From: Bacteroidota bacterium
GTDB lineage: Bacteria; Bacteroidota; Bacteroidia; Flavobacteriales_D; Sanyastnellaceae
Length of the DNA: 34,883 bases
NCBI GenBank assembly: GCA_027619225.1
Contig: JAQCFW010000019.1
Coordinates: 1-34,883, forward strand
Reading direction: 5' to 3'
The position numbers were made by a program, and so were the translations under genes. The notes under the pieces are model-generated. The model was given only the letters and a program-made list of their open reading frames with translations. It was not told the DNA's origin and did no database searches. Positions 11,887-34,883 of the stretch are shown in pieces. How positions within the stretch are numbered: the stretch's first letter is position 1; every line of letters starts with the position of its first letter.

Positions 11887-12067
11887 CTAATCCCGGATGC
11901 AACGAGCAGAGACCCCGTTGGCTTGACTGTAGTCGCCAGGGAGGACAGTGTCGTAGTAGTAGCTCAACAGACGTAACCAAGAGTAAGAACCGGACTCTGT
12001 AGACGACCACCAATATCCGTAGTACCCTTTGTTGAAAAAACCACCGGAGTATCGGAAACCGCCTGGC
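11887..12067 (-). repeat. VR-like segment 1 (diversified 3' end of the FISUMP pseudogene)
   Basis: From the GCCAGGCGG block to the stop codon this segment aligns codon for codon with the TR at 34144-34324. TR Asn codons are replaced by Phe, Tyr, Leu, Ser, Thr and Ala codons, while the framework (GGF, WWSS, SARC.RD) is retained. It shares most mutated codons with VR-like segment 2, so the two derive from one diversified ancestor. Confidence 0.75.
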
Positions 12068-13254
12068 AAACCTGAGAAATCGCTGGAATTCGCCGCACCT
12101 GTATTTGGTGCAATCCAATGGTCATAACCCGTCTCTTTCATCTTACCTCCTCCTAAATTTACTCCGCCAAGAAAGCAGTTAATTGAGTCCATTCATCGTC
12201 AGATGGAATATGCCAATCACTTGGGCAAATGCCTTCTGTCATAACGGCTGGCCAGTTGTAGAGGACTCCATATGTCTCGTAGTTATCAGTTGCTTTAGCA
12301 GCAACAACGTCAGTACCTTCGTAACCATAAACGTAGTAGTAAGGTACTGTTTCGCTTCCTGTGTTAAAGTCTGAAGCCTCAGGCAGATAGCGGCAGTTCT
12401 CTGCAAACCAACATTGGTCACCGATTTGGACAGTAGAGTAATCGTAGCCTTCGTGGGAGACAAGGTCGCCGAACATGTATGGGTTAGAAGTTATTCAAAT
12501 CCAAACACTTGAACATCAACATCACTTAGCTCAGAAGTAAGAGTACTCGTAAATGTTACATACCCATCTGCTGGATTAACAAATAGGTTGACAAATGTTA
12601 ATGACATATCGTATGCCTCTGTAATGTAATCCTCATCTTCAGGAACCTCAGTATAGATATTTATACCTGATTCAGCATTTGAAATCACAAAACCTCCTGC
12701 AATATCTCCTACGGAATAAGCCGGTGAGTTAGATGCTGTTACATGACTGAATACAGTGTAGTTACCGTTATTGATATTAGATACAACCAAGATTGATGCA
12801 ATATCGACGTTACCAGCATAAAGCTCAAGTAATAAAGATCCTGTACCGATAACATCACCCACTAGAAGTCCCGAAAGATTAAAAGATCCAGCATCTGAAA
12901 CTACTAATGAAGATAATATCTCAGACTCACCAGCATCTTGAGACATCGTGTAAATTAGGTTTGTTGAGCTACCCCCTACAGAATTATCGATAATTATATT
13001 AATTGTTGGAGAGAATCCTGTTGCAGAAAGACAACTACATTCATCACAAGCTAATGAACCATCCAAACATATGTATGAAGGTTCTAATCCCCCACAAGCT
13101 GCCCAAGAATAACTATATAATGAAAGAAGTCCCATGACATCGCTAACTCCAATAATACCATTTCCGTCATAATCAGGGTTATAATTAGGGTTAGTCTGCC
13201 CAAATGCATTGAAGCTTAAAGCAAATAGTAATAAAATAATTGATTTATAATTTT
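11887..13254 (-). pseudogene. FISUMP/C-type-lectin-fold secreted protein, degenerate tandem copy with VR-like 3' end
   Basis: Homologue of the intact neighbour at 13261-14766, reading from about 13254 to the TAG at 11887. Four lesions are visible by comparison. (1) The signal-peptide region (KSIILLLFALSFNAFGQ) has no ATG where the neighbour has one; the first usable ATG (13135) would drop the signal peptide. (2) An in-frame TAA at 12491 follows VQVFGFE. (3) About 2 extra bases near 12466 shift the frame before the FISUMP domain. (4) One base is missing near 12172 (ACTGCTTTC where the neighbour has ACTGACTTTC). The remaining pieces still read as FISUMP (YDYSTVQIGDQCWFAENC, then GVLYNWPAV, then CPSDWHIPSDDEW) and end in a VR-like segment (FRYSGGFFNKGYYGYWWSS...ARCIRD). 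It is not expected to make a functional protein. Confidence 0.88.
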
Positions 13255-13260
13255 AAGTTT

Positions 13261-13443
13261 TTAATCCCGAACGCAACGAGCAGAGACCCCGGTGGCATGA
13301 CTGTAGTCGCTTTGGAGAACAGTGTTGTAGTAGTAGCTCAGCAGACGTAACCAAGAGTAGGAACCGGCCTCTGTAGACGACCACCAATATCCGTAGTACC
13401 CTTTGTTGAAAAAACCACCTGTGTATCGGTAACCGCCTGGCAA
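13261..13443 (-). repeat. VR-like segment 2 (3' end of the intact FISUMP gene)
   Basis: Aligns over 58 codons with the TR at 34144-34324. A hand count gives about 28 mismatches at the ~55 TR adenines (~50%) and about 20 at the ~119 other positions (~17%). Variable codons include TAC, TTC, AGC, CTC, GCC and ACC where the TR has AAC. The end TCTGCTCGTTGC is shared exactly with the TR, as expected of an IMH-type anchor. The non-adenine differences mean this TR is not its immediate template. Confidence 0.75.
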
Positions 13444-14766
13444 GCCTGTGAAATCGCTGGAATTAGTCGCGCCTGTATTTGGCGAAACCCAATGGTCATA
13501 ACCCGTCTCTTTCATCTTACCTCCTCCTAAATTTACTCCGCCAAGAAAGTCAGTTAATTGAGTCCATTCATCGTCAGATGGAATATGCCAATCACTTGGG
13601 CAAATGCCTTCTGTCATAACGGCTGGCCAATTGTAAAGAACGCCATAAGTAGAGTAGTTCTCAGTAGCTTTAGCAGCTGCAACGTCAGTACCTGCGTAAC
13701 CATAAACGTAGTAGTAAGGTACTGTTTCGCTTGCTGTGTTAAAGTCTGAAGCCTCTGGCAGATAGCGGCAGTTCTCTGCAAACCAACATTGGTCACCGAT
13801 TTGGACAACAGAGTAATCGTAGCCATCGTGAGAGACGAGACCACCACAGGGAGCTATAGGGATAATATCAAACATAAACTCTTGAACATCAACATCGCCG
13901 AGCTCAGTTGTTAAAGTACTCGTAAAGGTGAGAGAACCTCCTTCAGGGTTAACAAATAAATCGTCAAAAGTTAAATACATATCGTACGCCTCAGCAATGT
14001 AATCCTCATCTTGAGGAACCTCAGTATAGATATTTATACCTGATTCAGTATTTGAAATCACAAAACCTCCTGCAACATCTCCTACGGAATAAGCCGGTGA
14101 GGAAGATGCTGTTACATAATTGAATACTGTGTAGTAACCGTTATTGATGTTAGATACAACCAAGTTTGATATAATATAGAAGTTACCTGCATAAAGCTCA
14201 AGATATAACATCCCTGAACCGATAACATCACCCACCAGAAGTCCGGAAAGATTAAAAGATCCCAAATCTGAAATCACGGAAGAAGAGAATATCTCCGACT
14301 CTCCACTATCTTGAGACATCGTGTAAGTGAGACTCGACGTACCCTCCCCCATCAAGTCAGCGAGCATTATATTAACTGTTGGTGAGAACTCGGGCAAAGC
14401 TGTACAATCAGATTCACCACAAACTAAAGCACCATCCCAACATGTGTATGAAGGTCCTGGACCATTACATACTCCACACTCGTCAAGCAAAGAACTTCCA
14501 TTTATAACGCAAGCACAGTCAATGTATAAAGTACAACTACCGTCATCAACATTTGCTAATGGGTTATACTCAACTGCATAAGAATATGTACATCCCGTTA
14601 TCACCTCTACATTATCCCAAGAAGAACCAAAAGATGAAAGAAACCCCAGAAGATCAGAAATATCAATAAAATTATTCCCGTCATAATCAGGGTTGAAATT
14701 CGGATTTATCTGCCCAAATGAATTGAAGCTTAAAGCAACTAATATAAATGTAATTAAATATCTCAT
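13261..14766 (-). CDS. Secreted FISUMP-domain protein with C-type-lectin-fold, VR-like C terminus
   Basis: 501 aa from the ATG at 14766 (a second ATG two codons earlier at 14772 is possible; the longer frame to 14898 has no signal peptide at its N terminus). Signal peptide MRYLITFILVALSFNSFGQ. Residues ~22-50 contain a dockerin-like calcium motif (DYDGNNFIDISDLLGFLSSF). Next is a Cys-rich segment (EYNPLANVDDGSC; DECGVCNGPGPSYTCWDG), a beta-rich ~170-residue middle domain, then a FISUMP (Fibrobacter major paralogous) domain: YDYSVVQIGDQCWFAENC, GVLYNWPAV, CPSDWHIPSDDEWTQL, WWSSTEAGSYSW, GVSARCVRD. FISUMP is a C-type-lectin-like fold in which the C-terminal face can be varied by DGRs. No lipobox or T9SS sorting domain is seen. 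Probably a secreted ligand-binding protein and a former or occasional DGR target. Confidence 0.85.
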   Translation of the reverse strand: MRYLITFILVALSFNSFGQINPNFNPDYDGNNFIDISDLLGFLSSFGSSWDNVEVITGCTYSYAVEYNPLANVDDGSCTLYIDCACVINGSSLLDECGVCNGPGPSYTCWDGALVCGESDCTALPEFSPTVNIMLADLMGEGTSSLTYTMSQDSGESEIFSSSVISDLGSFNLSGLLVGDVIGSGMLYLELYAGNFYIISNLVVSNINNGYYTVFNYVTASSSPAYSVGDVAGGFVISNTESGINIYTEVPQDEDYIAEAYDMYLTFDDLFVNPEGGSLTFTSTLTTELGDVDVQEFMFDIIPIAPCGGLVSHDGYDYSVVQIGDQCWFAENCRYLPEASDFNTASETVPYYYVYGYAGTDVAAAKATENYSTYGVLYNWPAVMTEGICPSDWHIPSDDEWTQLTDFLGGVNLGGGKMKETGYDHWVSPNTGATNSSDFTGLPGGYRYTGGFFNKGYYGYWWSSTEAGSYSWLRLLSYYYNTVLQSDYSHATGVSARCVRD

Positions 14767-15119
14767 AGCCATGCATTTATAGATACAAAAACGAACACTG
14801 TTTTTTATAATAAAATATATTTTGTTTTTATAAAGATACCACTTTTTTTTACATAAAATTACACTTTCGACAATAAAAATGATGTATGCATTGCACAACC
14901 TAACGGAAATATTAGAATTTAAAACTTGATTTGCAGAAAACAGATCTACGAATAGGAGTTGAGATAAGATGAAATCTTTTTATTCTTCATTGCATTCGAA
15001 GCGAGGTATACTTAACTTTAAAAACTTCAAGGGTACATCAGAAATTCAAAAAGTTTTGAGAAAATGATAACTCTATTTAGTCACTTTTTGTTACTGTTTC
15101 ACTGAAATAAATAAAAATT

Positions 15120-16298: not shown

Positions 16299-16386
16299 TC
16301 AACCCTGCAGATGTTACATAGACATTTGCGACAATGCCCCCCTCCTTACACAAGTGAACTTCTGACAAAGTTGGCATAAAAAAAAG

Positions 16387-17227
16387 CTAACTGACTGATT
16401 CAAATGCTCTAAACTGCCGTTCTATTCTTCTCCACATTTCCTCAAAATCAGGAAGCTCTTGAATTTGGTGGCTTAATCTCCTTTCCCACGTCCTTTTCAG
16501 CTTCTCTTTATTAGCTGATAATCTTTCTATGAACTCCTCTGGGTTACGGCCTTTATTTACGGCCTTTATTTACGGCCTTCCTATGAAATTCAGCAAAGAT
16601 TTCTTGCATCATAAGTCCAACTTCATCGGTAATGTAATCGAAGTCATACATATCCCTTGGCTCAACTCGGCTCATCAACGCTACCATCTTTTCTATGATC
16701 ACTTCCTTCAAAGAATAGGACTGAATATAAACTTCTCGCTCATCCGCAAGATCTTCATATTCGTGAAGTATTGATTTATACTCCAAATTAAATTCTAACA
16801 CTTCTCCCCTAGTTGCATCAATTTTTACAGCATCAACTGCACCTGAAGGGAGCGAGTATGCAATACCGAACTTCATACTATTTGTTGCAACATGCGGATT
16901 CTTTGAGTCCTCTGGGATGTTAAACTTTAGTCGTGCTGTTCTTTCGATGTCAGAAAATACCTTTTCAAATTCCTCATAAACGTTATCGTCTGTTAAAGTA
17001 TCCAATACATTTGGGTGAATGGTAAAATCCATATCCTCAGAGTATCTGTAATCTCCGAAATATATCTTCTTAAGGCACGTGCCTCCTTTAAAGATTAATG
17101 CTTCTGAAAGCACTTTATTTCTGCTGATACCCCACAGTATCCATGATATCATGTAATCCTTTTGGATTTGAGACATACGCACACCATGTGCGTTTGCTAT
17201 CCTTTGTAATTTGCCTTGTGCTATCAT
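16387..17227 (-). pseudogene. abiEii: AbiEii-type nucleotidyltransferase toxin, frameshifted by a 13-bp tandem duplication
   Basis: Type IV toxin-antitoxin toxin of the AbiEii/DUF1814 nucleotidyltransferase family, acting in abortive phage defence. The uninterrupted reading frame is 224 aa (stop at 16553) and contains the NTase motif FKGGTCLKK (46-54) followed by YSEDMDFTI (Asp pair ~65-67). At its end the minus strand reads GGCCGTAAATAAA twice in tandem. Deleting one unit in silico puts the frame straight into 55 further sense codons (NPEEFIERLSANKEKLKRTW, then LPDFEEMWRRIERQF) ending at TAG 16387-16389, giving 275 aa, the usual family length. So the current allele is truncated but could revert by slippage. 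It overlaps abiEi by 4 bp (ATGA). The catalytic core is intact, so residual activity cannot be excluded. Confidence 0.88.
16544..16577 (-). repeat. 13-bp tandem repeat in abiEii (possible slippage tract)
   Basis: On the plus strand the unit TTTATTTACGGCC occurs at 16552-16564 and 16565-16577, preceded by a partial copy TTACGGCC at 16544-16551. Thirteen is not a multiple of three, so gain or loss of one unit switches the C terminus of the toxin. Confidence 0.95.
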
Positions 17228-18316: not shown

Positions 18317-19381
18317 TTAACTCCTTTTTTTAAATTTATTTCTCCCTTTTTTATCGAATCTTGTTATACTATCTTGACCCACTACATTTACATATCCAAA
18401 GACGTTATCAAGGGCTTTTTCCTCAATTATGGTTTCTACCTCCTCCTTTAAATCTTTCAGAATCATACCTTCATTAATTAGTGTTTGAATTTCTTTTACC
18501 CTTGCGATTTTTATTGGTATTAAATCGGCTTCATTGGGGTAACTAAACCACATCATTTGTTTTTCAATATCTGTTTTTTGCAGAAGGGCAATCCCTTTAA
18601 GTGTTTTAATGGCGTTAACATTATTGGCCTTCAAAGAAGATTTTTTATTTCCCCAATCTTTGATTAGGCAACATTTGAATTCAGACCATTGCTTGCCTTG
18701 ATTTTTACGAAACATTGTAGACCTTGTATTAAAATCTGTTAACCAAGTAGAATGACAAAATTCTCTTCCACAAGTACCGACACCACCTAAACGGGCGGCT
18801 TCCTCTAACAGGCTAATTTGACGCATTACTATTTTGATATGAAACGTTGCAGCCATTACCGGTAGCAGTTCTCGAAAATCAACCCGTTTGTCTGCTGTAT
18901 AATAGAATGTAGCTTTAGTATTATCTCCCTGATAATCAACATCACATATTTTCATCTTCACATTTAAATCTTTTGCCAAAATACGTGCTTTGTACATTGT
19001 TTTAGATTCTAAATCTTTAGCAGTTTTCCATTTTTTAATATCCGCTGGACTTGCCTTTCGGTAGATTTTTTTAATGACATCTTTCGTTTGGATATTGTGT
19101 TTTTTTAGTTGTAAACGAACCAATTCTCCAGTTAGTGAAACATGCCCAACGTCATACCCACCAACGGCTTCAACAATTACTATATCTGTCTGTTTAAGGG
19201 GTGTCTTTTCAGGATTTATATAAAAATCTTTACGCCCTCCTTTAAATTTTATTTCAACAATGTTGAATGCTTGTTGATTAGTTGGCAATGGTATGTCGGC
19301 AAGCCAATCATATACATTTAATTGATTATATGCTCCGCTTAGGTTGGGTATATTATTTTCACGTTCTGAAGTAGTATCCAT
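18317..19381 (-). CDS. Diverged PSP1/RicT-like protein
   Basis: 354 aa. The PSP1 domain is recognisable: FNIVEIKFKGGRKDFYINPE, DIVIVEAVGGYDVGHVSLTG, KMKICDVDYQGDNTKATFYY, TADKRVDFRELLPVMAATF and EEAARLGGVGTCGREFCHST. In ordinary Bacteroidota RicT proteins the last motif continues with a second Cys and an LNPxKxxGQCGxLxCC segment. Here one Cys is replaced by His (REFCHSTW) and the following segment is rewritten (KNQGKQWSEFKCCLIKDWG), so the Fe-S ligand set is altered. RicT-family proteins form Fe-S complexes linked to RNA processing. The reading frame is long and intact, so this is either a specialised paralogue or an early-decay duplicate. It sits beside a lipA relic and an Nfu gene. Confidence 0.8.
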   Translation of the reverse strand: MDTTSERENNIPNLSGAYNQLNVYDWLADIPLPTNQQAFNIVEIKFKGGRKDFYINPEKTPLKQTDIVIVEAVGGYDVGHVSLTGELVRLQLKKHNIQTKDVIKKIYRKASPADIKKWKTAKDLESKTMYKARILAKDLNVKMKICDVDYQGDNTKATFYYTADKRVDFRELLPVMAATFHIKIVMRQISLLEEAARLGGVGTCGREFCHSTWLTDFNTRSTMFRKNQGKQWSEFKCCLIKDWGNKKSSLKANNVNAIKTLKGIALLQKTDIEKQMMWFSYPNEADLIPIKIARVKEIQTLINEGMILKDLKEEVETIIEEKALDNVFGYVNVVGQDSITRFDKKGRNKFKKRS

Positions 19382-19440
19382 ATCTATTGAATAAAATTGA
19401 ATTATATATTGAAAACATTTTCGGCATTAATACACTGGGT

Positions 19441-19710
19441 TTAAATAATTACTTCTCTCATACTTTGTCTACCCGTATGCACATTGCAAAATCCGCAGGA
19501 TCTTGTACAGGTGTTCCCTAAGATCATAAAGGTAGCTGTTGCGTTTCCCCAAAATTCACACATATTAGGGCAACTGCCACAAATGGTATGTGATTTATGT
19601 TCAGATACTATTTGTCTAACTTCCGCATATTCTTTTCCCATCGGCAGTTTTACACGAAGCCAATCGGGTTTTTTAGAATATTTTCTTTCTACTTCAACTA
19701 TTTCTTACAT
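19441..19710 (-). pseudogene. lipA: Lipoyl synthase N-terminal relic
   Basis: About 90 residues match the N terminus of lipoyl synthase: [40 protein letters not shown] and [20 protein letters not shown]. The radical-SAM CxxxCxxC motif (CTRSCGFC) is kept, but the auxiliary cluster motif, normally CX4CX5C, reads CxxCxxxC. The second codon after the in-frame ATG at 19710 is TAA, and the frame ends after [12 protein letters not shown], losing more than two-thirds of the enzyme. It cannot be a working LipA. It precedes the RicT-like gene on the same strand and follows nfu. Confidence 0.85.
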
Positions 19711-19736
19711 AATCTAAATTTGAACTAATCTTAATT

Positions 19737-20351
19737 TCATGCTGTTTCTGCAATCACTTCTTGAACTTCTGGCAACATTCTGCGAAGGAGATTTTCAACA
19801 CCCTGTTTTAAAGTTGTTTTCGTAGAAGGACAGCCGTTACACGCGCCTTTGAGTACAAGAGTAACCTTGCCGTTGATAAATGATTTGAAGTGAATAGTTC
19901 CGCCATCGCCTTCCACTGCTGGGCGTATGTGCTCGTCCAGTAAATCAATAATTTGTTTATCAATGTCACACGAAACAGTTTCAGGAGCTATCTCCGAATC
20001 TACTTCTGTAATCATTTCTTCGCTAAAAATTTCTTCGCCTGATGCAACATGTAACTTTATGAGTTCTTTCAGTTCAGGAATAACTTCATACCACTCTATA
20101 CTTTCGTCTCGTGTTACTGTTACAAAATTAGAGGTAATGAAAACTCCTTTTACATAAGGAAATGCAAATAGTTTTTTTGCTAATGCTGACGCTTCTGCCT
20201 TTTCTCGCGTTCGAAATTCAACGCTTTTGCCAGCTTCCTTAACCAACAAAGAATTAAGGACAAATTTCATCGCAACGGGATTGGGTGTCATCTCTGCATA
20301 AATAGTATGGGCAAACTGTACGGTATTGTTGGTTTCTTGAGTTGTTGTCAT
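19737..20351 (-). CDS. nfuA: NifU-family Fe-S scaffold/carrier protein (Nfu)
   Basis: Delivers Fe-S clusters to client enzymes (known clients include lipoyl synthase). The start is taken at the ATG at 20351 (204 aa), because the 19-residue extension to 20408 is basic, unlike the family. N-terminal Nfu domain (IYAEMTPNPVAMKFVLNSLL, FPYVKGVFITSNFVTVTRD) and C-terminal NifU domain (ridge LDEHIRPAVEGDGGTIHFKS) with the cluster-binding pair C171-x2-C174 in GACNGCPST. Both domains look intact. Its neighbour is a relic of its own client LipA, which suggests this small cluster was once a second lipoylation/Fe-S unit. Probably expressed from the 76-bp region before the insertion-element relic. Confidence 0.92.
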   Translation of the reverse strand: MTTTQETNNTVQFAHTIYAEMTPNPVAMKFVLNSLLVKEAGKSVEFRTREKAEASALAKKLFAFPYVKGVFITSNFVTVTRDESIEWYEVIPELKELIKLHVASGEEIFSEEMITEVDSEIAPETVSCDIDKQIIDLLDEHIRPAVEGDGGTIHFKSFINGKVTLVLKGACNGCPSTKTTLKQGVENLLRRMLPEVQEVIAETA

Positions 20352-20485
20352 CTGTTGTTTTCTTTTAGTATTAATCTTAATGAGGAGTCTTTTGAAAAAT
20401 AACTCCATGCCAAATTAATGAATATTATTAACTTATTTTTTATACTTAGTATCAACATGAGGTTTACAAACATCCATGTTAACCA

Positions 20486-24147: not shown

Positions 24148-24183
24148 TGATCCACACTATAGGTTTAATCCAATTTAATGAGT

Positions 24184-24297
24184 CGTCATCATAAGTTGGA
24201 CAACAGTAAACTGTATTTATTGACACTTTTTTCGTTAGAGTGTTACAATTAAACTTGTTCCGGGATTACTCACACTGCTACTGCAGTGATCGTGATC
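24184..24297 (-). repeat. 114-bp direct repeat, copy R1
   Basis: About 80% identical, same length and orientation, to 32461-32574. On the minus strand it comprises the last codons of a gene (DHDHC, SSVSNPGTSL.VTL, stop) followed after 8 nt by a GTG-initiated small frame. The two copies bound an 8.4-kb block. Confidence 0.85.
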
Positions 24298-26872: not shown

Positions 26873-29515
26873 CTAATCGTTAAAAACTAGTTCTCCTTTA
26901 GTTTCTTGTTCTTTAAATTTTTTCACCAAAGCTAAAGCGTCTGGAATCACATCGCTACATAATATTATGAGAGAGCCTTTTACAGCATTTTTAACAGCGA
27001 AGGTAATTGCTTCTTTTTCCGAAGGAATAATAGTAGTTTTCTTATTAGGATCTTTCATTTTAATTCCATCGTGTAACATTTTAATAAGTTCTTCTTCCGT
27101 TTTGCCTCTCAAACGTTTGTCTTGTCTTATAATTATCTCGTCAAACATTTCTGCAGCAATACTTCCCATTTCATTATTATCTTCAAGTCGTCTGTCTCCA
27201 ATTCCTGCAATAATTCCAACTTTTACAGTGGCCTTTAACTCGTCTATAAACTCTTTTAGAGCTCTCATCCCAGCAGGGTTGTGAGCATAGTCTAAAAGTA
27301 TGCTAAAGTCTTTAAACTCAAATAAATTTAAACGTCCAGGTGTTTGTGATGAAGAAGGAATAAATGTTTCTAAAGCAGCTTTTATATCTTCAATACTAAT
27401 GCCTTGAACATGCGCAGCCAAAATTGCTCCTAGAACATTTTTAATCATAAATTTAGCTTTTCCGCCATAGGTTAACGGAATATCTTCGGCTTTCATTAAG
27501 CGCATTTTCCATTCTCCTCTGCAGATTGTTACGTAGCCATTTTCATACACTGCAGTAATTCCGTTTAAACGCTGGAGTGCTTTTATTCGTGGATTAGTTT
27601 CATCCATAGAAAATAGAGCAACATTACACTGAACATTTCGACGCATATCATACACTAAATCGTCATCAGCATTTAAAATAGCATAACCATCGGGTGAAAC
27701 AGTTTCCGGCACGACAGCCTTTACTTTTGCTAATTGGTCAATTGTATGAATTCCTTTTAATCCTAAGTGATCAGCTTCAACATTAGTTACAACTGCTACA
27801 TCACAATTTTTAAAACCTAAACCAGCTCTTAATAATCCGCCACGAGCACATTCTAATACAGCAAAATTTACCGTTGGATCTCTTAATACAAACTCAGCAC
27901 TTGTAGGTCCAGTGCAATCACCAGTCATTAATAATCTGTTTTGAATATATACACCATCACTAGTTGTATAACCAACTCGATATCCTATCATTTTTGCAAT
28001 ATGCGCAATCAAACGTGTTGTCGTTGTTTTTCCATTGGTGCCTGAAACTGCAATAATTGGAATACAGCCTGAATCACCTTTTTGAGGGAATAATTTATCT
28101 ATCACAGGAGCCGCTACATTTCTAGGTAATCCTTTAGTGGGAGCTAAATGCATTCTAAATCCTGGGCCTGCATTTACTTCTAGCACAGCACCCCCAGTTT
28201 CTGATAATGGTTTTGAGATGTCGGTGGTCGTGATATCTATTCCGCAAATATCTAAATCGATGATTTTTGAAATTCTTTCCGCCATACTTACATTTGCAGG
28301 ATGTATAATATTTGTAATATCTTCTGCAGTCCCTCCAGTACTTAGGTTTGCTGTGTCTTTTAATATTAACATCTCTCCTGTTTCAATTACAGAATCTAAT
28401 GAATAGCCCTTATCTTTTATTATTGTTTTTGTTAAATCATTTACAGTAATTTGGGTTAGCACATTTTCATGACCATAGCCACGACGTGAGTCACTATTCA
28501 CTATGTCAATAAGTTCTTGAATAGTTGATTTCCCATCACCAATAACATGCGCAGGAGTTCTAATTGCTCCTGCTACTAATTTATTGTTAATCACTAATAA
28601 TCTATAATCACTTCCTTTAATAAACTTTTCAACAATGATCACTCCACTTTTAGAACTTTCTTTTGCTTGTTGAAATGCAATTAAGGCATCGTCATAATTT
28701 TGAATATTAACGGTTATTCCTCGACCATGATTACCATCCACAGGCTTAATTACTAAAGGATAGCCAACATACTTACAAGCGTCTTCCAAACTACTTTCCC
28801 TTCGGATAATATCTCCTTTTGGGACTTCTATTTCTGCTTGTTCTAGAAGGTATTTTGTATCTTCTTTATCGCAAGCCAGTTCAACACCAATACTACTAGT
28901 TTCACTTGTTACAGTCGCTTGTATTCGTTTTTGATTAGCGCCATACCCAAGTTGAACCAATGAATATTTATTCAACCGAATCCAAGGAATTCCTCGACTT
29001 TCAGCCTCTGCTACTATTGACCCTGTGCTTGGTCCAAGACGATCATCTTCACGTAATTCACGCATTTTTTGGATATCGTCCGTTAAATCATAAACTTCCC
29101 CCACTATTAGTGCTTCACAAATTCTAACCGAAACCTTGGCAGCATATCTTCCAACAGATTCTTCCATGTAGGAAAAAACCACATTATAAACACCCTCTTC
29201 TCCATAACCACGAGTTCTTCCAAAACCAGTATCCATTCCTGCTAAAGTTTGAACCTCTAGAGCAATATGTTCTATAATGTGACCCATCCAAGTTCCTTTA
29301 TCAACTCGCATAAAAAAACCACCTTCGCATCCTTCAGAACATCTATGAGAATACATTGAGGGAAACATGTTTTTTAATCGCTCAGAAAAACCTTCTATTT
29401 TATTTGAAGGTGTTTTTTCCATTTCCTGAAGATCTAATACCATCACGATTAACTTGTGTCTTCTTACTGACCAATAATTCGGCCCTCTCATTACATTGAT
29501 TTCTCTAATTTCCAT
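26873..29515 (-). CDS. cphA: Cyanophycin synthetase (CphA1 type)
   Basis: 880 aa, the usual length. Polymerises Asp and Arg into the nitrogen-storage polymer cyanophycin using ATP. Three domains are visible: the N domain (residues ~1-160, with HRCSEGCEGGFFMRVDKGTW, then GHIIEHIALEVQTLAGMDTG); an ATP-grasp G domain (~215-480, YPLVIKPVDGNHGRGITVNI, VIIVEKFIKGSDYRLLVINN, AVLEVNAGPGFRMHLAPTKG) that adds Asp to the backbone; and a Mur-ligase-like M domain (~485-880) with P-loop GTNGKTTTTR (492-501), VEADHLGLKGI and DYAHNPAGMRAL that adds Arg. All motifs are intact. Divergent from cphB with 46-76 bp between starts; no clear promoter box was found in the gap. Confidence 0.97.
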   Translation of the reverse strand: MEIREINVMRGPNYWSVRRHKLIVMVLDLQEMEKTPSNKIEGFSERLKNMFPSMYSHRCSEGCEGGFFMRVDKGTWMGHIIEHIALEVQTLAGMDTGFGRTRGYGEEGVYNVVFSYMEESVGRYAAKVSVRICEALIVGEVYDLTDDIQKMRELREDDRLGPSTGSIVAEAESRGIPWIRLNKYSLVQLGYGANQKRIQATVTSETSSIGVELACDKEDTKYLLEQAEIEVPKGDIIRRESSLEDACKYVGYPLVIKPVDGNHGRGITVNIQNYDDALIAFQQAKESSKSGVIIVEKFIKGSDYRLLVINNKLVAGAIRTPAHVIGDGKSTIQELIDIVNSDSRRGYGHENVLTQITVNDLTKTIIKDKGYSLDSVIETGEMLILKDTANLSTGGTAEDITNIIHPANVSMAERISKIIDLDICGIDITTTDISKPLSETGGAVLEVNAGPGFRMHLAPTKGLPRNVAAPVIDKLFPQKGDSGCIPIIAVSGTNGKTTTTRLIAHIAKMIGYRVGYTTSDGVYIQNRLLMTGDCTGPTSAEFVLRDPTVNFAVLECARGGLLRAGLGFKNCDVAVVTNVEADHLGLKGIHTIDQLAKVKAVVPETVSPDGYAILNADDDLVYDMRRNVQCNVALFSMDETNPRIKALQRLNGITAVYENGYVTICRGEWKMRLMKAEDIPLTYGGKAKFMIKNVLGAILAAHVQGISIEDIKAALETFIPSSSQTPGRLNLFEFKDFSILLDYAHNPAGMRALKEFIDELKATVKVGIIAGIGDRRLEDNNEMGSIAAEMFDEIIIRQDKRLRGKTEEELIKMLHDGIKMKDPNKKTTIIPSEKEAITFAVKNAVKGSLIILCSDVIPDALALVKKFKEQETKGELVFND

Positions 29516-29591
29516 CTTTAGTTCTTTTGTTGATAGATCATAAATATATACATTTTAAAAGATGAAAAATAGTTTATTTTTGATTTTTAAA

Positions 29592-30449
29592 ATGAAATTT
29601 ATGCAACAAGTGAGAGGGATATTAATTCCAATAGGCGGAAATGAAGAAAACGAAAAAAGCCGGCTTGAGTTTATTGATGATGGAATTTTGTATCAAGTTG
29701 TAAAAGAGGCAGGTGGAATTAAAGCAAGTATTGTAATCATTCCTACGGCATCAAGTATTCCTATTGAAGTTGGAAATAATTATATAGAAGCATTTACTAC
29801 TTTAGGCTGTAAAAATATTTCTGTTCTTGATATTAGAAGTAAAGAAGATTCTGAAAAACAATCTTCAATAGATTTAATTAGAAATGCAGATTGTGTTATG
29901 TTTTCTGGAGGTAATCAATCAAACATCACCAATAAAATTGGTGGAACAACAATTCATAGAATCTTAGTAGATCGATACAAAAATGACGAAGGTTTTGTGA
30001 TTGCAGGCACAAGTGCTGGTGCTATGGCTATGACGAATGAAATGATTTCTGGCGGAAGCGCTTCTGAATCATTTTTTAAAGGGTCTGTCAGTATGTATAA
30101 AGGATTGGGCTTAATCTCTGAATTAATTATTGACACGCATTTTATTAAACGTGGTCGTTTTGGAAGACAATCTGAAGCTGTTGCGAAATTTCCAAATTTA
30201 ATTGGAATCGGATTGGCAGAGGATACCGGAATGATTATTAAAAATGGAAAAGAATGCACTGTAATTGGTTCTGGAACGGCAATTGTTTTTGACGGAAGTT
30301 CATTAACACATAATAACGAAGGGATTCTTGAAGAGGGTACACCAATGACTATAGCAAATCTAAAAGTTCATGTGTTGTCAAATGGTGATCAGTATGACAT
30401 CAAGAACAGACTTGTTACAGTATTGCCAATTAAGGCGCCTTTTATTTAG
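29592..30449 (+). CDS. cphB: Cyanophycinase
   Basis: Serine peptidase of family S51 that cleaves cyanophycin to beta-Asp-Arg dipeptides. The frame opens at ATG 29562, but the first ten residues (MKNSLFLIFK) are not like the family. ATGs at 29592 (used here, 285 aa) and 29601 lie closer to the conserved start GILIPIGGNEEN. Family motifs: ASIVIIPTASSIPIEVGNNY, DCVMFSGGNQSNITNKIGGT, the nucleophile elbow FVIAGTSAGAMAMT (Ser ~131) and IDTHFIKRGRFGRQ with GIGLAEDTGMII. No signal peptide is evident, so it acts intracellularly on stored granules. Divergent from cphA and followed by the isoaspartyl peptidase on the opposite strand (60-bp convergent gap). Confidence 0.95.
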   Translation: MKFMQQVRGILIPIGGNEENEKSRLEFIDDGILYQVVKEAGGIKASIVIIPTASSIPIEVGNNYIEAFTTLGCKNISVLDIRSKEDSEKQSSIDLIRNADCVMFSGGNQSNITNKIGGTTIHRILVDRYKNDEGFVIAGTSAGAMAMTNEMISGGSASESFFKGSVSMYKGLGLISELIIDTHFIKRGRFGRQSEAVAKFPNLIGIGLAEDTGMIIKNGKECTVIGSGTAIVFDGSSLTHNNEGILEEGTPMTIANLKVHVLSNGDQYDIKNRLVTVLPIKAPFI

Positions 30450-30509
30450 TTCTAAATACTCACTTTTTTGAATTCTTTGAATTCCTCGAATTCTACAGAA
30501 GTTATAACA

Positions 30510-31439
30510 CTATTTATAAATAGAAATTTCTTCTTTTCCGTTTGATGATTTAGTGGCTCTGTACATTCCTTCTGTATTAAAAGGCATCGCAACATTTCCT
30601 TTGGAATCAACTGCAATTAAACCTCCATCACCACCAATTTCGAGGATTCTTTTATGAATTACTTCGTTAGAAGCTTCCAATAAAGACATTTCTTTATGTT
30701 CAATTAAACACGCTACATCATATGCAACAACACCCCGTATAAAAAGCTCCCCACTACCCGTACAAGAAATGGCGCATGTTTTATTATTGGCATAATTTCC
30801 AGCTCCAATCATAGGACTATCTCCGACTCTTCCAAAACGCTTGTTTGTCATACCCCCTGTAGAAGTTGCTGCGGCAATATTTCCATCTATATCGCAAGCA
30901 ACAGCACCAACAGTGCCAAATTTACTGTCTTTTTTCTTTGCATGGTCAAGTTGAAAACTATCTGTGTCCTTAATTTCTAACCATTGCTTATGACGAAAAT
31001 CATCATAAAAATATGATGCAGGTTCAATAGTGAAATTATTCATTTTAGCAAATTGCATTGCTCCTTCTCCAGCTAAAAAAACATGCTCACTCTTTTTCAT
31101 AACCTCACAAGCTAATGAAATCGGATTTTTAATCCCAGAAATTAAACTAACAGCACCAGCATTTAAGCTATTACCGTCCATTATAGAAGCATCCATTTCA
31201 TGGGTTTCATCCGCAGTAAAAACGGCGCCTTTACCTGCATTAAATAAATGTGAATCTTCCAAAACGACAACCGCTTTTTCCACGGCATCAACTGAATTTC
31301 CACCGCCCTCTAAAACTGAATATCCTGCATCCAGAGCTTCTTTTAAAGCCGCTTTATATTGGTTTTCTAATTCATCTGTCATCATTCCTTTTACCAAAGT
31401 TCCTGCACCACCATGAATAGCAATTGAAAAAGTTTTCAT
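30510..31439 (-). CDS. iaaA: Isoaspartyl peptidase / plant-type L-asparaginase
   Basis: 309 aa Ntn-hydrolase. Splits beta-aspartyl dipeptides, completing cyanophycin breakdown to Asp and Arg. N-terminal FSIAIHGGAGTL, GGGNSVDAVEKAVVVLEDS and NAGKGAVFTADETHEMDASI; the autocleavage/catalytic Thr is T166 in KFGTVGAVACD; then TSTGGMTNKRFGRVGDSPMI and GAGNYANNKTCAISCTGSGE. All family motifs are present and there is no signal peptide. It forms, with cphA and cphB, a complete synthesis-and-mobilisation set. A TATTTTTG box (31460-31453) lies 13 bp upstream, beside the MITE-like element, so the promoter may involve that element. Confidence 0.94.
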   Translation of the reverse strand: MKTFSIAIHGGAGTLVKGMMTDELENQYKAALKEALDAGYSVLEGGGNSVDAVEKAVVVLEDSHLFNAGKGAVFTADETHEMDASIMDGNSLNAGAVSLISGIKNPISLACEVMKKSEHVFLAGEGAMQFAKMNNFTIEPASYFYDDFRHKQWLEIKDTDSFQLDHAKKKDSKFGTVGAVACDIDGNIAAATSTGGMTNKRFGRVGDSPMIGAGNYANNKTCAISCTGSGELFIRGVVAYDVACLIEHKEMSLLEASNEVIHKRILEIGGDGGLIAVDSKGNVAMPFNTEGMYRATKSSNGKEEISIYK

Positions 31440-32398: not shown

Positions 32399-32503
32399 TT
32401 AACAAGGAAAATCAATACTCATGACTTCCTCCCTACAATTCGGACATTTTAGGTGTAAGTCGTCAGCATATGTTGGACAAAAGTTACAAATATTAATGGA
32501 CAC
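32399..32503 (-). CDS. Small zinc-ribbon-like ORF (34 aa, GTG start), uncertain
   Basis: A GTG eight bases after the R2-encoded stop opens MSINICNFCPTYADDLHLKC, continuing PNCREEVMSIDFPC. Two CxxC knuckles 12 residues apart resemble a rubredoxin-like or zinc-ribbon unit. In copy R1 the equivalent frame has only one CC pair and a different tail. It may be a micro-protein or the remains of a larger gene. No start-deciding ribosome binding site is visible. Confidence 0.35.
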   Translation of the reverse strand: MSINICNFCPTYADDLHLKCPNCREEVMSIDFPC

Positions 32504-32574
32504 TTTTTTCGTTAGAGTGTAACACTTAAACTTGTTCCGGGATTACTCACACTGCTCCCGCAGTGATCGTGATC
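32461..32574 (-). repeat. 114-bp direct repeat, copy R2
   Basis: Partner of 24184-24297. It encodes DHDHC, GSSVSNPGTSL.VTL and a TAA at 32512-32514, but the gene body upstream is replaced by hairpin-rich non-coding DNA. Contains the inverted repeat CACTGC-TCCC-GCAGTG. Confidence 0.85.
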
Positions 32575-32889
32575 GGTGAGTGGGGCTTACTCAACAAAAA
32601 AGAAGCCTTCGCTCTGCGAGCGATTTGGTCTTTTTTATACACTTTTTCTTACACAAGCTTCGCTTGTGACGACAGCGCATAAAAAAAGCCCGATACACTT
32701 TGTGTATCAGGCTTCTTTTTTTTTGTGACCTCCGGTGGTACAGGTTCGAACTTTTTAGAGGATTTGAAATCTCTTATATAAACAATCAATTTGCTGTTGA
32801 TTTCTTCAACTCCTGAAGAGATGGTTGAGGTGAGATGTAAGAAGACTAAATCTGCTTTTTCGACGGCTTTATTCAAAAGCAAAACACCA
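32575..32889. other. Hairpin-rich gap downstream of the DGR reverse transcriptase
   Basis: No convincing gene. Besides the terminator at 32681-32721 it holds a second hairpin, CACAAGC-GAA-GCTTGTG (32652-32668). An open frame at 32649-32882 runs straight through the terminator and is not believed. Confidence 0.6.
32681..32721 (-). terminator. Bidirectional intrinsic terminator after the RT gene
   Basis: Stem GCCCGATACAC (32688-32698) and GTGTATCAGGC (32702-32712) with one mismatch and a TTT loop, A-run on the left and T-run on the right. It ends minus-strand transcription from the DGR. Confidence 0.85.
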
Positions 32890-34095
32890 TTAATTAAATT
32901 TAACAGTAAATTTATTTATGTTTTGATCTACTGTAACGAAACGATACCACAGTCGTGAGAGGTATTTATTCAACATTCTTTCTCTTAATCTAAAGGTGGA
33001 GAAATGACGCATCAACCCCAAGTATGAATTCATCGTGCTTATAAATTGCTCGAAGTTTTCTTCACTCGGTGTGGAGTTATTTCTACAAATTGCCCTAATT
33101 ACAATGTTTTGAGCTTGTATCGATTCGTAAAACCCTGATTTGATACGGTTGCCAACATAAGTTCGTCCAGGTTTTATATACGTTCCTAAGAAAGGCACAC
33201 CATGTTTTACCTCCTGAAGATATATTTTCTTAGGATGAAGTGTAAGGCACAAATCTGATCTTAGAAAATGTTTTATTTTAGGTATTATCAATTTTAAATA
33301 TTCTTTGTCACGAGAAATCATATAAAAATCGTCAACATACCTACCATAAGCTCCAATACCTAAATCTTGTGTAACGAACATATCGAGAGAATGAAGGTAA
33401 AAGTTCGCGAAGACTTGGCTTGTGAGATTACCTATAGGAATACCACAAGTTTCTGGACTGTAAAATAAGCTTTTATCTGGTGGGAGTCCAACCCAATCAG
33501 ATGGAGCTCCCTTAACTACACATAAAGAAGTAGAGTCGTGCGTAACGATCATCGACACCAATCGCATCATCAATTCCTTATCTTTTTCTTTATAGTTTTC
33601 GAAAATAAGTTTCATAAGACGTCGATTAAGGATATCTCTATTTATATGCATAAAGAACCCTTTAACATCCAGTTTGAGCAGCCAAGCTTCTTTTGTGTAG
33701 TTGTCTGACACTCGCTCCATGTCTTCTCGTACACTTCTTATACCATAATGAGTACCTTTAGATACTCTACAGGCAAAACTATTTGGGTGAAAAAGAGTCT
33801 CAAAAATCGAGTTTAATTTATCTATTAAAAAATGATGAATAACTCTATCGCGGAAGTCAGCGGCAAAGACTTCTCTTCTAACGGGCTTGGTAACCACAAA
33901 GGCAATACTGCTAGATAATTTATACCTACCTGTAATTACATCATCATAAAGTTTAAATACATTTGACTCAAAATGTTTTTCAAATTCTAGAGAAGAATTT
34001 TTATTTCTTTTATTTTTTCGACAGTTAAAATAAGCCGTGAAAAGATCCTTCAACAACTCATCATCGGTGTCTTCATAAAATAAACTTAGTTGCAT
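32890..34095 (-). CDS. DGR reverse transcriptase
   Basis: 401 aa. Copies the template-repeat RNA into cDNA with adenine-specific errors. Motifs in order: N-terminal palm FEKHFESNVFKLYDDVITGR; FAADFRDRVIHHFLID (with HPNSFACRVSKGTHYG); motif A LLKLDVKGFFMHI (Asp ~153); the DGR/group-II-like motif GIPIGNLTSQVFANFYLHSL (218-237), where IGxxxSQ is a DGR hallmark; the catalytic GRYVDDFYMIS (YVDD 253-256); FLRSDLCLTLHPKKIYLQ and PFLGTYIKPG; then a C-terminal helical thumb. No maturase, protease or endonuclease domain is present, and the neighbours are Avd and a TR, so this is a DGR RT and not a group II intron or retron. The start ATG at 34095 lies 10 bp downstream of the TR terminator; translation has no visible Shine-Dalgarno. 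Confidence 0.95.
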   Translation of the reverse strand: MQLSLFYEDTDDELLKDLFTAYFNCRKNKRNKNSSLEFEKHFESNVFKLYDDVITGRYKLSSSIAFVVTKPVRREVFAADFRDRVIHHFLIDKLNSIFETLFHPNSFACRVSKGTHYGIRSVREDMERVSDNYTKEAWLLKLDVKGFFMHINRDILNRRLMKLIFENYKEKDKELMMRLVSMIVTHDSTSLCVVKGAPSDWVGLPPDKSLFYSPETCGIPIGNLTSQVFANFYLHSLDMFVTQDLGIGAYGRYVDDFYMISRDKEYLKLIIPKIKHFLRSDLCLTLHPKKIYLQEVKHGVPFLGTYIKPGRTYVGNRIKSGFYESIQAQNIVIRAICRNNSTPSEENFEQFISTMNSYLGLMRHFSTFRLRERMLNKYLSRLWYRFVTVDQNINKFTVKFN

Positions 34096-34105
34096 GTTTT
34101 ATAAT

Positions 34106-34131
34106 AAAAAGCCCCAACGGTTTGTTGGGGC
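34106..34131 (-). terminator. Intrinsic terminator between the TR and the RT gene
   Basis: Minus-strand stem GCCCCAAC (34131-34124) and GTTGGGGC (34118-34111), 5-nt loop, followed by TTTTT (34110-34106). It would end the TR RNA shortly after the template and leave RT expression to read-through. Confidence 0.85.
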
Positions 34132-34143
34132 TTACTCTTAATT

Positions 34144-34324
34144 CTATCCCGGACGCAACGAGCAGAAAAGCCGTTGTTTCGATTGTTGTTGTTTCGGTTG
34201 ACATTGTCGTTGTTGTTGTTCAGTTTACGTTTCCATGAGTTGGAACCAGACTCTGAAGCAGACCACCAGTTTCCGTTGTTTCCATTGTTGTTGAAACCAC
34301 CGGAGTAGCGGTAGCCGCCTGGCG
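34144..34324 (-). ncRNA. DGR template repeat (TR)
   Basis: Non-coding template read on the minus strand. In the frame of the target it spells GGYRYSGGFNNNGNNGNWWS, then ASESGSNSWKRKLNNNN, then DNVNRNNNNRNNGFSARCVRD: about 19 of 58 codons are AAC or AAT, the classic TR design in which adenine mutagenesis yields many residues without stop codons. It lies between avd (ends 34452) and the RT (starts 34095). It aligns with the 3' ends of both FISUMP genes (11887-12067 and 13261-13443). A TATTTTTG box (34333-34326) fitting TAnnTTTG lies directly in front. No exact-match VR occurs in the window. Confidence 0.93.
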
Positions 34325-34356
34325 ACAAAAATAACCGCACCCTCTAAATCACTTAG

Positions 34357-34378
34357 CTACAGATACGTTTATCTGCAG
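34357..34378 (-). other. Stem-loop 5' of the TR
   Basis: Minus-strand CTGCAGATA (34378-34370) pairs with TATCTGTAG (34365-34357) through nine pairs including one G-U, around a 4-nt loop AACG. It lies in the 111-bp avd-TR spacer and could be a structured handle of the TR RNA for RT/Avd. The rest of the spacer shows nothing. Confidence 0.55.
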
Positions 34379-34451
34379 CGGGATGCCGGATAAAAAATGC
34401 TCTCTCCTACAGACCTTAGCCGATAAGACTCACGCACGATTGATTGGAAAA

Positions 34452-34793
34452 TTACTTACTTACTTTATGCCAACCATTTAATTGCTTTGAAATGTTTTCA
34501 ACTATTTTATTTTGCCGTACAAAAGTCTTGATATCTATGACGTGAAGCTCATGCATTATTCTAATAGTGAGCCTAACAACCTCTATCTTTTCCTTAGCTA
34601 ATTGTAGAGTCTCTTTCTTATTCTCCATTGGTGCAGCTCTAAACACTATAATTAGCAAGTCTTTAACGTCACTACGCAGCTCTGCTCCTAAAGAATATTT
34701 ATAAAGCTTATCCATATCCTTTGAAGTCTCAAATACAAGCTTAGTGAGGTCATAACAGGATTTATAAACCGGAAGATCTAGATGAACGGACAT
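34452..34793 (-). CDS. avd: DGR accessory variability determinant (Avd), four-helix-bundle protein
   Basis: 113 aa, almost entirely helical, of the Avd/S23-like four-helix-bundle family. Helix 1 LPVYKSCYDLTKLVFETSKD (~7-26), helix 2 KYSLGAELRSDVKDLLIIVF (~32-51), helix 3 NKKETLQLAKEKIEVVRLTI (~58-77) with RIMHELHVI, helix 4 RQNKIVENISKQLNGWHKV. Avd forms a basic pentamer that binds the RT and the TR RNA and is required for retrohoming. The order Avd, TR, RT on one strand is the standard bacterial arrangement. Helices 2 and 3 carry K/R patches, as expected. The ATG at 34793 has no nearby TAnnTTTG box, so it may be transcribed from the presumed target gene to the right. Confidence 0.9.
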   Translation of the reverse strand: MSVHLDLPVYKSCYDLTKLVFETSKDMDKLYKYSLGAELRSDVKDLLIIVFRAAPMENKKETLQLAKEKIEVVRLTIRIMHELHVIDIKTFVRQNKIVENISKQLNGWHKVSK

Positions 34794-34827
34794 GTTGAAA
34801 AGTTAAGTTTTGAAAAAAATCACTCCC

Positions 34828-34883
34828 CGTGCTCACGCACGGCTCGTGATTTGCCAACGCGCGACTGCGTCGCTATAATTTAA
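34828..34883. other. DGR linker repeat (copy B) with tandem hairpins at the window edge
   Basis: CGCACGGCTCGTGATT (34836-34851) and CGCGACTGCGTC (34860-34871) repeat the linker found at 11825-11871 right after the FISUMP pseudogene. Hairpins: CGTGC-TCAC-GCACG (34828-34841) and GCGAC-TGC-GTCGC (34861-34873). By analogy the stop codon of a target gene should lie within a few tens of bases beyond the right edge. Confidence 0.6.

Follow-up and report, generated by a model that had tools for sequence, protein, structure and literature searches.

The 34,883-nt stretch of DNA analysed here, which we refer to as the window, makes up the whole of contig C17 in the assembly under study (G000; 2.03 Mb, 49 contigs, 97% complete), and very likely carries the core of a diversity-generating retroelement (DGR) whose targets are dispersed across the genome. 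The element is ordinary in kind, with an open core, and what is unusual is the record of its action across the genus. The features of the window that matter for this reading are as follows.

34861-34873, minus strand: stem of 5 bp with a GCA loop (GCGAC-GCA-GTCGC), of the type found after variable repeats (VRs); from sequence, with the same hairpin past the VR end on C14.
34817-34852, minus strand: imperfect palindrome, the second in the VR 3' flank (AAATCAC..CCGTGC-GTGA-GCACGG..GTGATTT); from the DNA fold and the C14 flank.
34452-34793, minus strand: avd, accessory protein of 113 amino acids, four-helix bundle; from the ORF and from family and fold matches.
34146-34324, minus strand: template repeat (TR) of 179 nt, with 56 adenines and 19 AAC/AAT codons in the frame of the target; from VRs of this assembly and of relatives, whose mismatches to it are A-specific.
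34096-34145, minus strand: TR-RT spacer, 50 nt long, containing a terminator-like hairpin; from an inverted repeat and the RNA fold.
32890-34095, minus strand: reverse transcriptase (RT) of 401 amino acids with GIPIGNLTSQ and YVDD; from Pfam, PHROG, PDB and tree.
13261-14898, minus strand: FISUMP-domain protein b, intact, with a drifted VR at 13264-13441; from PF09603, 126.9 bits.
11887-13135, minus strand: FISUMP-domain gene a, disrupted and split over several frames, with a drifted VR at 11890-12067; from PF09603 in two separate ORFs.

The first-pass annotation had placed Avd, TR and RT in this order on one strand and had seen no lesion in either protein. The order was borne out on the minus strand with exact coordinates, both ORFs are open with their conserved positions kept, and the core is plausibly competent. 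Upstream of Avd the contig continues for 90 nt and ends within sequence that elsewhere follows VRs, and the nearest target gene therefore probably lies past the end of C17 and is missing from the contig. No Rfam family was found above threshold in the window, in which ARAGORN also identified zero tRNA genes.

The RT contained both of the motifs claimed for it and matched Pfam RVT_1 (61.1 bits) and phrog_1423 (E 2.3e-86). Its best PDB sequence match was the BPP-1 DGR RT, 8ub7 (E 5.7e-27), followed by the group II protein LtrA (E 2.9e-6). The scores fell far under the curated cut-offs of TIGR04416 (group II intron RT; 103.6 vs 300), retron St85 (45.5 vs 235) and Drt2 (antiviral DRT; 37.5 vs 390). 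A quick tree of 99 RTs split three group II intron RTs from the DGR RTs with SH-aLRT support of 100, with BPP-1 on a long branch, and placed the RT next to that of G005 (NORP19) with a support of 90 (not starred), the two lying inside a Bacteroidota-rich group of DGR RTs. The small Avd-like protein was recognised both by family and by its AlphaFold model, which had four helices and a pLDDT of 92. It matched phrog_3206 (E 1.4e-17), NCBIfam DivGenRetAVD (E 5.8e-12; 45.9 bits, below the curated cut-off of 80) and Pfam bAvd (37.1 bits, below the curated cut-off of 40). A PDB sequence search with Avd gave nothing useful; in a Foldseek search with the model, the closest solved structure was the Xanthomonas protein 2gsc (TMq 0.92), and BPP-1 Avd 4dwl (TMq 0.82) and 8ub7 were also matched.

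The A-rich segment between Avd and RT, which had been described as packed with AAC/AAT codons, proved to be a TR of 179 nt. Its frame translates to PGGYRYSGGFNNNGNNGNWWSASESGSNSWKRKLNNNNDNVNRNNNNRNNGFSARCVRD, with 16 AAC and 3 AAT codons. G000 contained this single copy without adenine changes and, in addition, seven VR-like places, several of them on other contigs of the assembly. Mismatches to the TR were concentrated at adenines in the VR on C36 (7/15 A and 0/36 non-A sites; Fisher p 5.6e-5), in the minus-strand VR on C26 (21/39 and 3/81; Fisher p 5e-10) and in the plus-strand VR on C26 (8/19 and 1/43; Fisher p 1.6e-4), while the stretch on C14 was too short to tell (1/3 and 0/28; p 0.097). 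The three remaining places also carried many non-A differences: C1 (26/56 and 21/122), and C17a and C17b, the VRs of FISUMP genes a and b in the window (29/56 and 17/122; 28/56 and 20/122). Among the assembled VRs of G000, none is both full-length and low in non-A mismatches: the VRs on C36 and C14 were cut by contig ends, C26 contained two truncated remnants and C1 a fragment with in-frame stops.

When VRs from relatives were added, 15 of 21 had a p-value for A-bias below 1e-4. Over these 21 VRs the TR adenines were changed to T 209 times, to G 198 times and to C 76 times, most commonly at codon position 1 (238/371, compared with 179/454 at position 2 and 66/153 at position 3), and in the final 20-nt bin of the TR 0/18 adenines were altered. 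Taken together, the RT class, the Avd protein and the A-biased TR/VR pairs support the identification as a DGR; neither of the two contrary outcomes named in the first-pass annotation, a lack of any A-biased near-copy of the TR and an RT outside the DGR clade, was found.

For the isolated pieces of VR on C26 and C1, an origin as 5'-truncated retro-insertions was also considered, but their flanks and neighbours recur beside targets in G001, G006 and G004, and they were classified as remnants. It was noted that the plus-strand VR on C26 (L010 6143-6204; C26:25142-25203) is internally deleted and fused behind about 70 codons of the start of another gene, presumably TPR-like, of which a second copy was not found in G000.

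We consider C17 to be probably resident in G000, perhaps as an AT-rich island. The alternative, that C17 was misbinned and carries the DGR of another organism, while a similar DGR that is missing from the assembly wrote the VRs in G000, is unlikely but deserves weight. A pair of core genes in the window, which we take to be PSP1-like and Nfu-like, was present as side-by-side divergent, foreign-looking second copies (18317-20408), with the resident copies on C27 and C4. The PSP1-like protein of C17 was 38% to 42% identical in amino acid sequence to those of 11 genus mates, to which the resident G000 copy was 70% to 91% identical; its best matches in 395 genomes of the class reached 54% to 57% and came from another family, and none close was found among 399 genomes of the order. 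Across 17.5 kb of C17, few nucleotide matches to genus mates were obtained beyond fragments of two core genes and short repeats (only 21 candidates scored per genome). As to a plasmid origin, 17.5 kb gave no match in a plasmid collection (near mode). The contig is also AT-rich, with 5-kb bins at 0.34 to 0.39; of the resident bins, 4/62 lay below 0.39. In length-matched tetranucleotide comparisons, its five 10-kb segments (0.34 to 0.40) scored below 19 to 22 of the 24 resident segments (0.30 to 0.55), whereas 9/11 outside loci of the same size scored 0.30 or lower, with L108 at 0.38 and the same-genus L066 at 0.45; the value of 0.58 for C17 as a whole is inflated by length.

Against misbinning, the TR matches the VRs on C36, C26 and C14 as well as VRs in 8/13 other genomes of the genus, the 68-nt VR 3' flank at the end of C17 is 96% identical on C14, the region of FISUMP gene a is 79% like C20 over 716 nt, and the start of C17 matches the end of C16 at 92% along 166 nt, in the manner of an overlap. 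Interspersed repeats of C17 were moreover found on C18, C32 and C34 of G000 and in G001, G004 and G005, although some of them are IS-derived and mobile.

Other segments of the window were noted in passing. At 32453-32730 and 24181-24297 lie IS-end-like remnants and a palindromic interspersed repeat, which occur also on C18 and C32 of G000 and in G001, G004 and G005. The 74 nt at 16382-16455 recur unchanged on G005 C11, close to what we take to be an IS3-type transposase gene, and in the window they adjoin a presumably AbiEii-like gene. Three adjoining ORFs at 26873-31439, presumably for cyanophycin-synthetase-like, cyanophycinase-like and isoaspartyl-peptidase-like proteins, form a possible cyanophycin storage cluster.

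The FISUMP genes a and b (11.9 to 14.9 kb) are tandem duplicates, 86% identical over 1205 nt, and in the FISUMP genes the VR extends to the stop codon. Gene a contained internal stops, and the 2 VRs differed from each other at 5/56 A and 10/122 non-A sites. With drift in both, a broken gene in one case and no excess of A differences between the duplicates, these VRs are not live; they are old copies at which rewriting has ceased, and the duplication was not followed by renewed rewriting. FISUMP is a published DGR target domain; as a refinement of the first-pass annotation, the 2 copies in the window are not live targets.

The FISUMP domain of the intact gene b was modelled with a pLDDT of 84. 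With VIA-align, on which the fold call rests, the model matched InvE (Z 8.9), Lcl (7.8), many C-type lectins and BPP-1 Mtd (7.0), values of 7 to 9 that may reflect merely a common arrangement. Foldseek gave no match to the model at E 0.001 or better (best E 0.12), and a PDB sequence search with the domain found no relative. The VR sits at the 3' end of a target with a predicted C-type-lectin fold. As read by eye from the sequence, the target proteins have signal-peptide-like starts and dockerin-like repeats; they may be secreted binding proteins with a C-type-lectin fold, and the fold and the signal-peptide reading suggest a role in surface recognition. FISUMP-like ORFs were also seen on both sides of the RT in the viral contigs L142, L143 and L144, where the downstream match was weak. 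A search of viral contigs in general with a 27-mer of the VR end found none.

The state of the VRs in G000 raises the question of whether the element is a relic, in which RT and Avd are still open yet no target is rewritten and all VRs are fossils. We regard this as improbable. The drifted FISUMP VRs of the window, undiversified between themselves and in one case within a broken gene, and the truncated copies on C26 and C1 are what such a relic would contain, but the mismatches on C36 and in the minus-strand VR on C26 are A-specific, and the RT and Avd genes contain zero stops. Furthermore, four contigs of G000 (C36, C14, C17 and C20) end in or beside target genes, which is expected, though not solely, if VRs vary in the population.

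A hairpin downstream of the VR, another feature of DGRs, is present as well. The hairpin GCGAC-GNA-GTCGC was located 17 to 18 nt past the VR on C14 and in relatives, but was absent after some well-kept VRs (L036, L051 and L039). The 48-nt stretch that contains it, folded alone, was no better than shuffles (z -0.06), whereas the DNA fold of the second palindrome (34816-34860) had a z-score of -4.4. To place these structures among other elements, we examined 126 DGR loci with a TR/VR pair out of 161 with an RT, C17 included, the other 35 having no usable upstream pair; BPP-1, the positive control, was recovered with its 8-bp stem and GAAA loop. A short GC-rich hairpin was found within 60 nt after the VR in 59/126 loci. 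The loop was of 3 nt in 28 of the 59 hairpins, and in 23/28 it was GNA (20/25 on genome contigs, 3/3 on viral contigs). In 200 dinucleotide shuffles the mean was 0.3 and the highest count 2. The loci are related and hence not independent, and 12 distinct stems were represented. Passages of published reports describe 3-nt GRA loops in nanoarchaeal DGRs and 4-nt GRNA loops in phage DGRs, and our survey suggests that a 3-nt hairpin loop is common in a Bacteroidota-rich DGR group. The spacer between TR and RT contained an inverted repeat (34102-34118/34124-34140), and RNA folding of 34090-34150 gave -17.7 kcal/mol with a z-score of -3.5. Spacers of 70 nt or less were found in 96/126 loci, and a short spacer is therefore common in this set; a simple scan identified a terminator-like hairpin there in 17/126.

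Within the genus, the TR search gave matches in 9/14 genomes, G000 included, while the RT was found in only 2/14 (E 1e-30) and Avd was clear in the same 2, with one further match at E 0.2. The 14 genomes are 61% to 97% complete, and targets are places where contigs often break; the absence of RT and Avd from the other genomes is therefore uncertain, and the missing cores may be assembly gaps. The second core, in G005, follows five tandem FISUMP genes in the order Avd-TR-RT; it has different neighbours from the core in G000, and the RTs are 53% identical. The G005 VR nearest to the core differed from the TR at 25 A and 0 non-A sites over 182 nt, two further VRs had 3 and 7 non-A mismatches and the far two had many more, although the drift did not rise strictly with distance from the core. 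Only the nearest VR was free of non-A changes inside the TR, and it was also the only one followed by the hairpin when 110 nt past each VR were inspected.

In the well-kept, full-length VRs of the relatives, 43% to 59% of the adenines were changed, compared with 2% to 10% of the other bases. The same contrast was seen between species at the same target locus: G006 L036 and G011 L039 differed at 37/56 TR-A sites and 12/121 others (flank 131/140 alike), and G000 C26 and G006 L051 at 27/39 TR-A sites and 3/81 others (flank 63/69 alike). It is hardly conceivable that the A-biased differences arose, in place of reverse transcription, by the usual divergence among paralogous lectin genes that have asparagine-rich patches: FISUMP is a multigene family whose older copies carry non-A differences too, but the well-kept VRs of the relatives show A-specific change with a border at the VR edge, and RT and Avd lie beside an unmutated copy.

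To follow the silent sites, the G000 TR was compared with 14 VRs in six relatives, which were 77% to 98% identical to it at third-position non-A sites, 9/14 of them at 88% or more; the lowest values were 77% for L041, 80% for L046, 82% for L059 and 85% for both L048 and L056. The third-position identity of the hosts to G000, as represented by the resident PSP1-like gene alone, was 42% to 46% for G001, G002, G004, G005, G011 and G012, and 78.5% for G006. In pairs of targets from different species (G001, G002, G004, G006 and G011), the VRs were 86% identical at third-position non-A sites but only 40% identical at TR-A sites, whereas in the stretch immediately before the VR, over at most 120 codons, the third positions were 50% identical, a value lowered by the mixture of orthologues and paralogues. 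A pair was kept if it had at least 60 upstream codons and 20 VR sites, and G000 C36, C17a and G006 C16 were left out on this ground; G000 took part through C17b alone and was excluded from the pooled value. Retrohoming from near-identical templates would be expected to produce just such a likeness of silent sites, ending at the VR edge. The likeness of the templates across the genus could in turn be due either to a core that spread recently or to strong constraint on any template with many targets to serve. The TRs of G005 and G000 were 72% identical at third positions, which exceeds the value for the host gene, and some constraint on the template is therefore likely. In the titles and passages covered from open-licence PMC papers, a genus-wide silent-site pattern of this kind was not found.

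Targets recurred beside shared genes. One such gene, which we take to be trmE-like, adjoins targets in G004 and G000; a gene that scores with the GSDH family lies beside a target in G001, and a like gene adjoins targets in G006 and on C26 of G000; another shared gene adjoins targets in G004, G001, G002 and G011. A phage-type integrase gene adjoins targets in G006 and G011, and a remnant of its 3' end lies by a target in G009 and G001. In G006 (L036 88-1491) and G011 (L039 88-1491) the integrase gene was oriented tail-to-tail with the DGR target gene, and in G006 a second target (L060) was located on its other side; the integrase and target could possibly form a mobile target cassette.

The element resembles the DGR of Bordetella phage BPP-1 (mtd-avd-TR-brt) in the order Avd-TR-RT, the RT motif GIPIG.LTSQ, the fold of Avd, the C-type lectin fold at the VR and the target flank with a hairpin upstream of Avd. 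It differs in that the spacer is 144 nt in BPP-1 and here 50 nt with a terminator-like hairpin, in that the VR hairpin of BPP-1 has an 8-bp stem with GAAA and here a 3-nt GNA loop, and in that BPP-1 is a phage, whereas the present element lies on a bacterial contig with dispersed targets. By analogy with the mechanism described for BPP-1, the TR RNA would be bound by RT and Avd and copied in such a way that adenines are paired with random bases; the resulting cDNA would take the place of the VR at the 3' end of a FISUMP gene, in many cases with the aid of a small hairpin past the VR. The DGR may be expressed and active at present.

According to passages of the respective reports, one core with remote targets, and target genes that persist in isolates without the core, are also known from the Treponema denticola DGR with its TvpA-type targets (PMC4891356); these are of the FGE-sulfatase type and from one species, whereas the targets here are FISUMP genes in several species. 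The passages on human-microbiome DGRs list 9 variable proteins with Fib_succ_major, the same target domain as here, from human metagenome assemblies, and contain no genus-wide comparison (PMC4159848). Several targets of unequal activity are likewise described in the passages on the DGR loci of Thiohalocapsa PB-PSB1, where some RTs were replaced by MITE-like arrays and the targets, in contrast to those studied here, are in putative conflict systems (PMC10907252).

The pattern across the genus fits a core that is mobile or repeatedly lost and that rewrites resident targets. A more specific scenario, which we put forward tentatively and hold to be somewhat less probable than its negation, is that the core is a mobile mutator that recently swept the genus and overwrote the VRs of resident FISUMP genes at recurring positions, so that silent sites are alike and adenine sites different, and was then lost, leaving frozen, diversified lectins behind. 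With one template, seven VR-like places in one assembly and VRs in relatives without a detectable core, the genus offers a natural experiment on the evolution of a DGR separately from that of its targets, in which the silent sites inside and outside the VR may serve as a record of past homing that requires no population reads.
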